Below, piece after piece: positions 4 through 17,700 of a DNA stretch of 46,121 nucleotides. The notes beneath the pieces were generated by a model. The model searched no databases. It saw only the letters and a program-made list of their open reading frames with translations, and was not told where the DNA came from. Source of the DNA: a virus; the IMG/VR virus record IMGVR_UViG_3300024062_000011, positions 1 to 46,121 of that record; one strand, written 5' to 3'. The position numbers and the translations under genes are program-made. Numbering within the stretch: position 1 is the first letter of the stretch; each line of letters opens with the position of its first letter.

Positions 4-264
4 ATGAAAGTAAAAATTTTACAGCGAAATGTGTACTACAAAGTAGCAACAATCGAAATCGAAATACCAGATTCTGTTGATGAGTTTGATGTACAAGACT
101 ACGTGAATGAACACGAAGAGTTATGGGTTGAGCAACTCGAAGACCAGATGAGAGCCACTGACTATGAGTATGGTTTTGGAATGGACACTGACTATAACTG
201 GACAGACAAAGACCAACCATGTGAGTACAGATACGAAGTAGACAAGATAGGAGGGCACTTATGA
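4..264 (+). CDS. Hypothetical protein, 86 aa
   Basis: I do not recognise this protein. It opens with a lysine-rich strand-like segment (MKVKILQRNVYYKV) and is then strongly acidic, with many D, E, Y and W residues, which suggests a small soluble protein. The ATG lies three bases from the window edge in the ATTATG context seen at many starts here, so the gene appears complete, but an upstream operon promoter would lie outside the window. Its stop overlaps the next start as ATGA, implying translational coupling. Confidence 0.6.
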   Translation: MKVKILQRNVYYKVATIEIEIPDSVDEFDVQDYVNEHEELWVEQLEDQMRATDYEYGFGMDTDYNWTDKDQPCEYRYEVDKIGGHL

Positions 265-404
265 AAATTAAGCAACACAAAATTCTGCCCTCTGGACTAC
301 ACGCAATCGTAGACCAGAAAAACAGAGTACATATCTACACAGAGTTAGAATACCAACAGCTAACGTGGTGGCAGAAAATTAAATTAGAGAATGGTTGGAA
401 GTAA
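261..404 (+). CDS. Small hypothetical protein, 47 aa
   Basis: This short frame starts at the ATGA overlap with the preceding gene and ends at TAA 402-404. It is basic, with an IVDQKNRVHIYTE strand-like middle and a tryptophan-rich end (TWWQKIKLENGWK). Support comes from coupling to the upstream gene, same-strand position and the lack of any other frame here. It is the last gene before the promoter and ribozyme leader. Function unknown. Confidence 0.5.
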   Translation: MKIKQHKILPSGLHAIVDQKNRVHIYTELEYQQLTWWQKIKLENGWK

Positions 405-427: not shown

Positions 428-459
428 TTTGCACGTGTCTAAATTAAGTTTTATATTTG
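428..459 (+). promoter_or_regulatory. Bacteroidota-type promoter (TTTG-N20-TATATTTG)
   Basis: TTTG at 428-431, a 20-nt spacer and TATATTTG at 452-459 match the -33/-7 consensus of the Bacteroidota primary sigma factor (TTTG, about 19-21 nt, TAnnTTTG). A second TATATTTG at 424-431 overlaps the -33 box and could be an alternative -7 element, though I see no -33 box for it. The expected transcription start is about 463-467, only a few nucleotides before stem I of the ribozyme. It would drive the early operon from position 554 onward. Confidence 0.7.
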
Positions 460-469
460 TCGAACTTTA

Positions 470-527
470 GATTAACTGATGAGACTTCAATAGTCGAAAG
501 GGTAGGAGTTTTCCTACTCTCTTAATC
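470..527 (+). ncRNA. Type I hammerhead self-cleaving ribozyme
   Basis: All invariant core positions of a hammerhead can be placed. Stem I is GATTAA (470-475) paired with TTAATC (522-527), 6 of 6. The core is CTGATGA (476-482). Stem II is GACT (483-486) with AGTC (492-495) and loop TCAAT. GAAA is at 496-499. Stem III is GGGTAGGA (500-507) with TCCTACTC (512-519), 8 pairs including one G-U, loop GTTT. A499 pairs with U520, and C521 is the cleavage nucleotide (CUC), so the cut falls between 521 and 522. The molecule opens at stem I, hence type I. It lies between a promoter and an early gene, leaving a 32-nt untranslated region with a 5'-OH end. Structure is read directly; catalytic activity is inferred. 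Confidence 0.9.
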
Positions 528-528
528 A

Positions 529-538
529 GGCGAAAGCC
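529..538 (+). other. GNRA-type hairpin just 3' of the hammerhead
   Basis: GGC-GAAA-GCC forms a 3-bp stem with a GAAA tetraloop one nucleotide after stem I of the ribozyme. After cleavage at 521/522 it would lie close to the new 5' end of the mRNA. It might dock with the ribozyme or protect the 5'-OH transcript; both roles are inference. An A-rich, unstructured stretch (539-553) follows up to the ATG at 554. Confidence 0.6.
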
Positions 539-553
539 ACAAAAAATATTATT

Positions 554-760
554 ATGAGTATACATGCAATGAAGATGTTCATGCTCCTGGGTGACATGAC
601 CAACGAAAACAGCACCTTGGCAGACAAGGTAGCTTACAAACAGCGTATAGCATTTGCGACAATGCGTAATGCTGTTCCAGACTGGCAACCACCAAGCAAC
701 TGGGACACACTTTCAGACGAGGTGAAGATGGAACGTTTAACTAAACTAACTGAGGTATGA
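554..760 (+). CDS. Hypothetical protein, 68 aa (first gene after the ribozyme)
   Basis: This is the first gene downstream of the hammerhead leader and so the likely first product of this early transcript. The protein has a methionine-rich start (MSIHAMKMFMLLGDM) and a predicted helical body ending NWDTLSDEVKMERLTKLTEV. I recognise no domain. ATG 554 is in the TTATG context typical here; an internal ATG at 569 is also possible. The end overlaps the next gene as ATGA. Confidence 0.6.
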   Translation: MSIHAMKMFMLLGDMTNENSTLADKVAYKQRIAFATMRNAVPDWQPPSNWDTLSDEVKMERLTKLTEV

Positions 761-10524: not shown

Positions 10525-10715
10525 TGAAACATATAACATCGCTAGAGGACGAAAGGATAAAACATGTTAACGCAATAACTAACGAACTCCACGACTCTTG
10601 TGATGAGATATATGAATCTTTAATAGACCACGATTATACTCACTGTAAAGAAATTACTAAGACATTAATCCTTCAATTGAAATCAATGATAGACTCAATG
10701 GATGATGACTTATAG
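10524..10715 (+). CDS. Hypothetical protein, 63 aa
   Basis: Not recognised. Two or three helices with acidic ends (HDSCDEIYESLIDHDYTHCK; MIDSMDDDL). It is coupled at both ends: TAATG with the upstream gene and a 14-bp overlap with the phosphoesterase start. Confidence 0.5.
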   Translation: MKHITSLEDERIKHVNAITNELHDSCDEIYESLIDHDYTHCKEITKTLILQLKSMIDSMDDDL

Positions 10716-11424
10716 AAAGGATTTTAGACCACGACTAAGTGGCAACAGAAAAGCAGCGTTTGATAACCTGACTCAAAAAGAAAAAAGAATTCTTGTGATT
10801 GGAGATATACATGCTCCATTTGAACTTCCAGAATACTTTGATTTCTGTAAGGACACCTATGCTAAATACAACTGCAACCAAGTAATATTTATTGGTGATA
10901 TAATTGACAACCACTACAGCTCTTTTCATGCCACAGACCCAGACGGAATGGGTGGTGGAGATGAATTGGACTATGCCATACTAGAAGTTCAGAAGTGGGT
11001 TAAAGAGTTTCCTGTTGCTGATGTATGTATAGGAAACCACGACAGAATAATAATGCGAAAAGCTTTTGATTCTCAGATACCTAAACGATGGATAAAATCA
11101 TACAACGAAGTTCTTGGAACTAACTGGAATTGGGTTGATAGAATAGTGTATGATGGCGTACAGTATGTGCATGGAGAAGGTGGTACAGCTAGAACTAAAT
11201 CAAAGAATGACATGATGTCCACAGTTCAGGGACACATACATACACAAGCTTATACAGAGTGGTCTGTCGGAAGAAACTTCAAGGTATTTGGAATGCAGGT
11301 GGGGTGTGGCGTAGATAGCACAGCTTATGCTGCTGCATACGCAAAGAACTTTAAGAAACAAGCGATAGGATGTGGGGTTGTGATTGGTGGACACACAGCT
11401 ATAAACAGACTCATGGAATTGTAA
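10702..11424 (+). CDS. Calcineurin-like metallophosphoesterase
   Basis: The 240-residue protein has the full metal-binding set of the family: GDIHAP (34-39), GDIID (65-69), GNHDR (111-115), H157 in YVHGEG and GHIH (177-180). It would hydrolyse phosphodiesters or phosphomonoesters at a two-metal centre, with nucleotide or nucleic-acid substrates likely. Phage members are often in DNA-metabolism clusters, as here. ATG 10702 or 10705 could start translation; both are within the previous gene's end. Confidence 0.85.
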   Translation: MMTYRKDFRPRLSGNRKAAFDNLTQKEKRILVIGDIHAPFELPEYFDFCKDTYAKYNCNQVIFIGDIIDNHYSSFHATDPDGMGGGDELDYAILEVQKWVKEFPVADVCIGNHDRIIMRKAFDSQIPKRWIKSYNEVLGTNWNWVDRIVYDGVQYVHGEGGTARTKSKNDMMSTVQGHIHTQAYTEWSVGRNFKVFGMQVGCGVDSTAYAAAYAKNFKKQAIGCGVVIGGHTAINRLMEL

Positions 11425-14700: not shown

Positions 14701-17700
14701 CCACTGTAGACTTGGTTACACGTGATATAAGCTTGTTTATTTGTGCCTGAGTATATGTCTTAGATTTTGGTAGAGCCTTTCTTATATAGTTTCTCAGCTG
14801 TATCTGTGCAGCTTTCAGGTTCTGACTATTAATCTTACGCTGTCTTAGGTTGTTTTTAATCGCAGCTATTTCTTTTTGCACAGCAACATTAGAACGTGTG
14901 TCCAATGTCTTGTCAAAGTCCACTAGAATCTCCATCTGAGTTTGTTCTGGCTGAGCTTTGTAGATTGGATTCTCTTTAATTAAATCCATTGCCTTTTGTC
15001 TCACATCAGATAATGTTTTCTCTGGTGTAGCAAACTTAGAAAGCTTCTGTCTCACCTCATTAAACAACTGCATGCCCTGGCTAACACCACCTTCTACTCT
15101 ACCAAACGCCTCTGGTAACTGAGTAAATGCATCTACGTTTACCTCCATTGCGGAAATTATATCAGCAACTTTAAACCCTCTCCCTTTTAAAACCTCTTTA
15201 ATAGATGCGTCTGAGAATCCGTTCTGTCTCCCCTTATCTATGATAGCACCCATTGAATCTGTCTTACTGAATGCAGCATCAGGATTCTTAAGCTTTTTCT
15301 CCTGAGCTTTAGTAAGGTCTATTTTTTTACCAGCAAAGATATCAGCAAGTGCAGTTCCTAGGAATGTATCTAGATTCATATCCTGAATTTCTTCAGCCGT
15401 CAAATCTTTTGACATTTTAAATTGAGACTTGATGTAGTTCCACATACCTAAAAGCCACTGAGTAAATTTACTCTTTACTGCTCCATCAGCTATTGTCTGT
15501 CCTTTGTTTCCAATAAGGATAGCCATAGTTTCATTAGCGGCCTTTGCTTTGTCTCCGTTGAAGTTCTTAAGTTGCTTCTTATATTCTTCTGTTTGCTCTA
15601 CAAGTTTTACACCTTGTGCATATATAGCTTTTCCTTTCTTTGTAGTCTGTAAGTAGTCAGTCCACACGTGACCCATCTCATGAATAGATGTGTTAAATAA
15701 AGCAGATTGAGAATTATGTACATCTGGATTTATATATATATCACCATTAACAGTAACACCATATATAACCTCATCACCTTTAAGATATTTTTTTACACCC
15801 TCAGACTCCATAACATTATTAAATGTTGAGCCCTCAGTGGATATAGTGACAGACGGAAATGCAATATTCATAAAAGCATTTAGCTTAGCAGCATCATCCA
15901 TATTATTCTGCGCTAGTGCTCCTACGAAATCTCTACCAGGTAATCCCCATTGAACAAGTAATGTATTATTTAAGATGATATCTACACTAGATGGAGCAAG
16001 CTCACCCTCAACTAGTTTTCCTTTGCTTAGTTCAGCCTTTGTTTTTGTTACTGTTTCTTGTTTTCCCTCTGCTTTTGTTAAGCCTGCCATAGCTAATCTG
16101 TAAGCTTCTGGGTAGGTGTCTACCAATGAAACAGGCTGCTCTAATATCCCTATGGTTTTTCCTTTAGGACCAAAAGGATAATTAGGGTGATTTGTTTCTA
16201 TGACATCAGTAGCTGTTACATCAACTGCTTGTAATGCTATTATACTTCTTGATGGTATATTAGATAGTTGAGGCTCAGTAATAAGGTCTGTAATTTCTTG
16301 TATATGAGTTAAGCTAGCAGTCTCTGTACTAGGCTCCATACCCTCTAACAGAGCAATAACTACAGGCTTACCCTTTTTATTTGGCATACTTACTTTTGTC
16401 TTTGGTGCACCAGGCTTGCGAATAGACCCAGTAGTGATTCTTTTACTTAAAAATTCACGAGTAGGTATGGTAAGCTTAGCTAAAAACCCTGCATCTAAAA
16501 TCTGTTCTATAGATTTAAAATTTTCTATAGAGCTTAATATTTTTTTATAACCATTTATTTCTTCTTGGTATTTACCTAAGCTGCTTTCACTGAGCTTACC
16601 TTGTTTCATAGATGCAGTTCTTTTGTCTATAAAATCTTGTAAGTCTTGTCTTAAAACCTCTAAAGCTTTTACTTTGTTTTCAGCAGGTATTTTAGACAGG
16701 TTGTCTTTAAGTACTCTAAAAACAGCCTCATTTGAAGATATAGAACCCTCGCCCATCTTAACGATGTTCATAGGAACGTGTCCATTAAACTCTGGATTAT
16801 CTTTCCAGAACTTATCAAACAATTCTTTGTTGTCGTTGTATACTTCCTTTGCTTTATTGAGCAACTTTAAAGCCTCTTCTCTTGTAGTACTAGCCCACGC
16901 AGCATTTTCATTTCCGATTGTACCAGTAAATCCTAAACCACCTCTTAAATTATCTATGGTGTTTCCAGTAAAAATATTTACAATGTTACCTGTAGTAAGC
17001 TGGTCTGATATATTAAATATAGCAGGTATACCATTAATTACCTCTAATGTTTTTATTGATGGAAGCTTTCTGTCTGTTCTACTATTGAGTTCGTTAACAT
17101 CAATAGTGCCCTCAGGTTCTACCACAAGATTGGTAGACACATTTCCTGACTGTGTTTCGTTGATTGCCTTAGTGACTGCATCTACTTCACCTTTTATAGG
17201 GGTAAATGTAGCATCATCTTTCTTTCTAAAATCTACTTTTGAATCTGTATCATCTAGGGTGGACTCTAAGTCTGCCACCTCTTGAGCCGCTGCAGTTGAG
17301 CTGGCTTGTAGTTCTTTAAATCCTGGGAAGTATTCTTCAGTAGTTATCCCCTCGAACTTAGCATCGTTCTCTATTGCTTGGACGAGCGAGTTATAAACGT
17401 CTGACCCAGTTTGTCTGTCAGCGGACCTTTGGCTCGCAGTTCGTCCAAGAATTTCTTTCCTTTTTCCCTGGTCGACATAGACGGAGTTGACTGCTCGGTA
17501 GTTTTGTTTTTCATAAGTAATATTATTAGCTTCTAATTCCTCTACAAAGATACCAATTTTATCTTGAAGAGCTGGGTTATCAAAGTCAAATATATTTATA
17601 AAACTTACTTCCCCTGTATCTTCATTAATACTATAGTCTGTTATCCCTGCTTTTTTCAAGGCATTCATTACACCTTGAGTATCTGATACATTTAATATGT

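Follow-up and report, generated by a model that had tools for sequence, protein, structure and literature searches.

Probably, an early RNA of the phage studied here is cut after C521 by a functional, cis-acting type I hammerhead ribozyme that is one of a family placed at boundaries of early genes in this phage group. The window, that is, the whole stretch of DNA analysed, is a 46-kb virus record (46,121 nt). Its minus strand encodes terminase and portal proteins, and its plus strand carries genes for primase/helicase, annealing protein, exonuclease and DnaA-type proteins. Judged by the primase, the annotated relative closest to it bears the label 'Podoviridae sp.'; a megablast of its first 12 kb matched no named phage. 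Read directly, element by element, positions 470-527 of the plus strand form a complete type I hammerhead ribozyme. The site and its surroundings are composed as follows, with the source of each assignment in brackets.

261..404, plus strand: small upstream gene of 47 codons, whose stop ends 65 nt before the ribozyme (reading).
428..459, plus strand: Bacteroidota-type promoter, with -33 TTTG at 428-431, a 20-nt spacer and -7 TATATTTG at 452-459 (motif positions).
469..469, plus strand: conserved A directly outside stem I, a likely tertiary contact (A in 93% of 147 distinct type I copies).
470..527, plus strand: type I hammerhead ribozyme (direct reading, fold, finder, covariation, covariance model).
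470..475, plus strand: 5′ strand of stem I, GATTAA, with 522-527 as partner, 6/6 pairs (reading, covariation).
476..482, plus strand: core CUGAUGA, CTGATGA in the DNA (direct reading).
483..495, plus strand: stem II, GACT (483-486) and AGTC (492-495), 4/4 pairs, with a five-base loop UCAAU (reading, family alignment).
496..499, plus strand: core GAAA, in which A499 is A15.1, with U520 as partner (direct reading).
500..519, plus strand: stem III hairpin, GGGTAGGA (500-507), gttt, TCCTACTC (512-519) (reading, fold, covariation).
520..521, plus strand: U16.1 (U520) and C17 (C521, the H17 position), with the predicted cut at 521/522 (reading, finder).
522..527, plus strand: 3′ strand of stem I, TTAATC, which would provide the first bases of the mRNA after cleavage (reading, finder).
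528..528, plus strand: conserved A after stem I (80% of 147 type I copies).
529..538, plus strand: small GNRA hairpin GGC-GAAA-GCC at the predicted new 5′ end (comparison of relatives).
554..760, plus strand: first gene past the cut, 68 aa, no family match, with its start codon 32 nt from the cut.

The positions that define the class are all present (C3 U4 G5 A6 N7 G8 A9, G12 A13 A14, A15.1-U16.1 and H17), as is the topology of type I, with three stems round the core of which stem I is open and stems II and III are closed by loops. The minimum-free-energy fold of 463-545 is the hammerhead (-22 kcal/mol, z -3.0); with upstream sequence added, the minimum-energy structure is a different one. Stem I, six base pairs long, lacks an internal loop, so that something else would have to take the place of the known loop-loop contact; the flanking A469 and A528 and the loop II motif UNANU are conserved and, judged from sequence, would be candidates for the tertiary contact that makes cleavage fast. 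An intrinsic terminator was also considered because stem III forms a hairpin; no T run follows it, and a terminator scan finds none there.

Relatives were sampled as 80 viral loci, gathered via the primase/helicase gene, and searched with a finder for the three hammerhead topologies (all circular permutations) that demanded at least 13 stem pairs in total; the site in the window has 18. This strict search gave 34 sites, 19 of type I and 15 of type III, and none in 3.46 Mb of Markov-shuffled controls; in a relaxed scan of the same loci, 52 copies lay on the gene strand and 0 on the other. All three stems covary in an alignment of 18 type I copies from which the window was left out: 14/17 pairs are altered on both sides and 98.3% of the cells are paired, as against 26-38% in controls with slid partners, a count that leans towards structure because the finder demanded pairing. 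The covariation score is 0.797, compared with 0.207 in shuffles and about 0.1 with slid partners, and 0/500 shuffles match it.

Two further checks depend less on the pairing requirement. When a pattern specified nothing but the core and stem II, it found 109 distinct sites, and stems I and III are present as well in 103 of them, compared with just 2/5450 when the flanks are shuffled. A covariance model built from relatives, with the window excluded and one close orthologue (from L003) in the training set, gives the window site 68.3 bits (E 8e-14), as against 12.8 bits for the second-best match there. The claim of the earlier note that the hammerhead is complete is thereby upheld, the core being intact and stem III pairing 8/8 (including one G·U at 501-518) beside the full stems I and II. 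A search for core variants with an extra base gave one real case (L016:908); the other matches were re-registrations of ordinary copies and one long-range match that looks like chance. The exact pattern matches just twice across 257 Gb of genome contigs; the two hits come from metagenome-assembled bins, and one or both belong to the phage group of the window. A wider pattern finds at least 120 stretches in viral contigs.

A search with the Rfam covariance models, proposed by the earlier note as a check, did not return a hammerhead for the window or for eight relatives at the gathering threshold. When ranked by E-value the best hit, and the sole Rfam hammerhead family with a match in the window, is RAGATH-1-hammerhead (RF03152) at 446-526, with 28.7 bits against a threshold of 56.3. 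The two have the core segments ACUGAUGAGACU and GAAA in common, but the region that would correspond to the 5′ hairpin of RF03152 (446-467) overlaps the -7 promoter element in the window. The element is a member of the hammerhead class by structure and not a member of RAGATH-1.

Homologues of the gene past the cut occur in L003, L004 and L006 (78-99% identity), each behind the same type I ribozyme; in L006 stems II and III differ in sequence and are still paired. The GNRA hairpin past the cut is identical in L003, L004 and L205 and is compensated to GCC-GAAA-GGC in L006. Loss of the core from relatives that keep the locus, named beforehand as evidence against the ribozyme, is thus not seen among close relatives, as all with at least 78% identity retain the core. 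More distant homologues differ: in L009 (48% in the downstream gene) the place of the type I form is taken by a type III hammerhead, some 23 nt ahead of the start codon (RF00008, 45.7 bits, E 2e-9), and in L052 (55%) no hammerhead was found before the homologous gene. Of the 44 loci whose sequence extends 6 kb or more beyond the primase gene on its upstream side, 18 contain a strict match.

Across 147 distinct type I copies, stem I typically consists of six pairs, usually G-C-closed, stem II usually of four, and loop II follows the consensus UNANU; the sequence of stem III varies freely among relatives, and the copy in the window agrees with every family feature. Placement was assessed for the 149 type I copies that have sufficient flanking sequence; positions drawn at random from these contigs served as control. 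A start codon on the same strand follows within 100 nt in 147 of them, at a median of 21 nt from the ribozyme and 27 nt from the cut, and it lies 10-35 nt past the ribozyme in 81% (control, 16%). On the other side, an upstream stop codon is found between -30 and +15 nt relative to the ribozyme start in 139 copies (93%), and ends 0-10 nt inside the ribozyme in 64% (control, 7%); most often it is inside or at the edge of stem I, and often inside stem I or the core. In L205, a 5.8-kb contig (JAAGZR010000219.1), nine type I copies are arranged within about 4 kb, all in gene direction and typically 13-30 nt before a start codon, and the last ribozyme and the gene following it match those of the window. 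This contig is binned as Aliivibrio yet is a close relative of the window's phage group, which indicates that the bin is contaminated or contains phage DNA. The left end of the window is 12 nt past the position of the preceding ribozyme in the close relative L004; further copies have therefore probably been lost at the contig edge.

The motifs TTTG (428-431) and TATATTTG (452-459), 20 nt apart, agree with the Bacteroidota promoter consensus; the predicted transcription start is at about 463-466. That the ribozyme would serve only transcripts from this local promoter, its cleavage replacing a triphosphate start by a 5′-OH, is unlikely. In favour of it are the promoter-like arrangement about 10 nt before stem I, which L004 has as well, and the conserved small hairpin after the cut; but in L003 and L205 the promoter is absent at the site and the ribozyme sits directly on the end of the upstream coding region, and a close upstream stop accompanies 93% of the type I copies. 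The placement between a promoter and a first gene, as originally described, accordingly holds for the window and L004 and fails for L003 and L205. Since these two do without the promoter and 139 of the 149 copies have a stop nearby, the general role of the hammerheads would be to cut between genes; the trimming of a fresh 5′ end, which the earlier note had suggested, would persist as the special case in which a promoter stands in front and does not extend to the family.

For cutting between genes, we infer the following course in the cell. The nascent RNA, whether it originates at the promoter (452-459) or by read-through from the upstream gene, would fold as the hammerhead and be cut in cis during or soon after transcription. 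Hammerhead chemistry generates 5′-OH and 2′,3′-cyclic phosphate ends; the downstream mRNA would begin with 5′-OH-UUAAUC, followed by A and then the small hairpin, and the upstream RNA would end in the stable hairpins of the ribozyme with a 2′,3′-cyclic phosphate. The likely outcome would be small early mRNAs, separate from one another and each independent of its neighbours in stability and translation. As a general expectation rather than one specific to this host, a 5′-OH end should resist decay pathways dependent on a 5′ monophosphate, and the new ends would be poor substrates for decay enzymes that require a 5′ phosphate. Only tentatively, and with the odds against it, can this be extended to a system of punctuation, in which hammerheads at most boundaries of small early genes would convert an early polycistron into near-monocistronic mRNAs with 5′-OH starts and hairpin-capped 3′ ends; as the upstream stop is often inside stem I, the terminating ribosome might hold back the cut until the upstream gene has been translated.

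It is quite doubtful that cleavage is regulated, i.e., switched by alternative folding, by a ligand or by a ribosome terminating upstream, and thereby controls the next gene. Upstream stops frequently fall within stem I or the core, so that a ribosome terminating there would sit on the ribozyme, and positions 446-454 are able to pair with 478-486 in read-through RNA; however, the competing fold is worth just about 1-4 kcal/mol and is not specific to promoter-bearing copies, no conserved sensor domain is seen, and stem III varies freely. An RNA switch acting through this anti-ribozyme helix was rejected, because its effect in ensemble folding is small and equal in relatives without the segment.

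Very improbable is a scheme in which flanking ribozymes free gene-length RNAs that are subsequently healed or circularised by ligation. From tandem type I copies, RNAs with 5′-OH and 2′,3′-cyclic phosphate ends would result, the substrates of RtcB-type ligases, but genes of the RtcB or RNA_ligase families are absent from the 16 records searched, namely the window and 15 ribozyme-bearing relatives (controls were detected; host enzymes might act instead). A gene for a calcineurin-like metallophosphoesterase is present in the window at 10702-11421; some members of its family act on cyclic phosphate ends, and the gene may possibly be linked to the ribozyme products. That the elements are selfish or relic repeats devoid of function is a still fainter prospect, as their many copies and patchy distribution across relatives are outweighed by covarying stems, a fixed core, their restriction to one strand and to defined gene boundaries, and the two exact-pattern matches in genome contigs as against the 120 or more viral stretches of the wider pattern.

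Cleavage between genes may be studied in cultured Flavobacterium phages as well: the type I copy scores 58.3 bits in elemoA and elemoE, whose host is Flavobacterium sp. BAL314, and 47.2 bits in elemoF, and in each of the three a type III copy directly precedes the first gene of the leftward operon. In elemoA (NC_055852.1) the type I copy occupies about 17288-17349 on the minus strand, and the type III copy is located ahead of gp62. Across the type I ribozyme of elemoA, elemoE and elemoF a small plus-strand gene is annotated (gp68 at 17275-17382 of NC_055852.1, gp65 at 16289-16396 of NC_055854.1 and gp66 at 16030-16137 of NC_055853.1; all hypothetical); lying over a ribozyme on the opposite strand, these are probably spurious annotations.

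Other elements accompany the hammerheads in relatives. A 16-bp inverted repeat, GTGTCTTCAAAGACAC, is present both within and between genes, with as many as about a dozen occurrences in one locus (L009, L010, L014, L015, L017, L018, L026 and others). It supplies the hairpin that immediately precedes many type III hammerheads, as well as stem III in two type I copies; a comparable repeat was not found in the window. A conserved intergenic element, AATCAGAG..-GTGTCTTCAAAGACAC-..CTC, which is not a hammerhead, is located ahead of a start codon (L009:2177, L010:1442 and 1872, L014:294, L015:1802, L017:689, L023:2540, L055:2371) and is possibly another processing or 3′-end signal. In type III copies the 10.1-11.1 pair is G-C in 47 cases and replaced only by A·A in eight (L009:1308, L010:3031, L011:3720, L012:3809, L014:1357, L015:2969, L018:1774, L051:1634) or U·U in seven (L016:1451 and 3712, L039:937, L041:1801 and 4568, L062:1890, L093). 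U·U at this position is known to be tolerated (PMC3088659); A·A in type III may be new.

Type I hammerheads in phages and prophages, in multiple copies flanking genes or short gene blocks, were described by Perreault et al. 2011 (PMC3088659), who already proposed transcript processing; tandem prophage arrays cleave in vitro, one of them also in E. coli. The ribozymes described here agree with that set in core, topology, cut site and multi-copy flanking of genes, but are found in free Flavobacterium-type phages, as many as nine of them within about 4 kb, with a stem I that is uniformly 6 bp long and loopless, the loop UNANU and a tight placement before start codons. HHphage of haloviruses HF1/HF2 likewise lies just before an early gene (there a gene of the replication region), at a distance of 13 nt and with the transcript 5′ end at most 3 nt from the cut (PMC3088659); it has a variant core and belongs to archaeal viruses, whereas the core in the window is canonical. 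The type III form (RF00008) seen before the homologous gene in L009 is a circular permutation that is cut on its 5′ side, so that the ribozyme body stays on the downstream mRNA, unlike type I in the window. Both the hammerhead class and the processing idea are already known, and the role of hammerheads in phages and bacteria has been described as an open question (PMC6155905). Within the open-licence literature, and with earlier reports possible, the following are new: the dense array on one strand, its tight placement, the exchange of one permutation for another at a single site, and the coherent subgroup with a loopless stem I, which falls below the Rfam thresholds.

Since none of the hammerheads in the window or in the eight relatives scanned passed the Rfam thresholds, systems of this sort are probably annotated less often than they occur. 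What is added to the known kind is density, placement and cultivable hosts: elemoA and elemoE are isolated phages with a named Flavobacterium host and both type I and type III copies, which makes the function accessible to experiment. Because the placement is so regular and the permutations are so interchangeable, cleavage just before the start codon is likely a selected trait.
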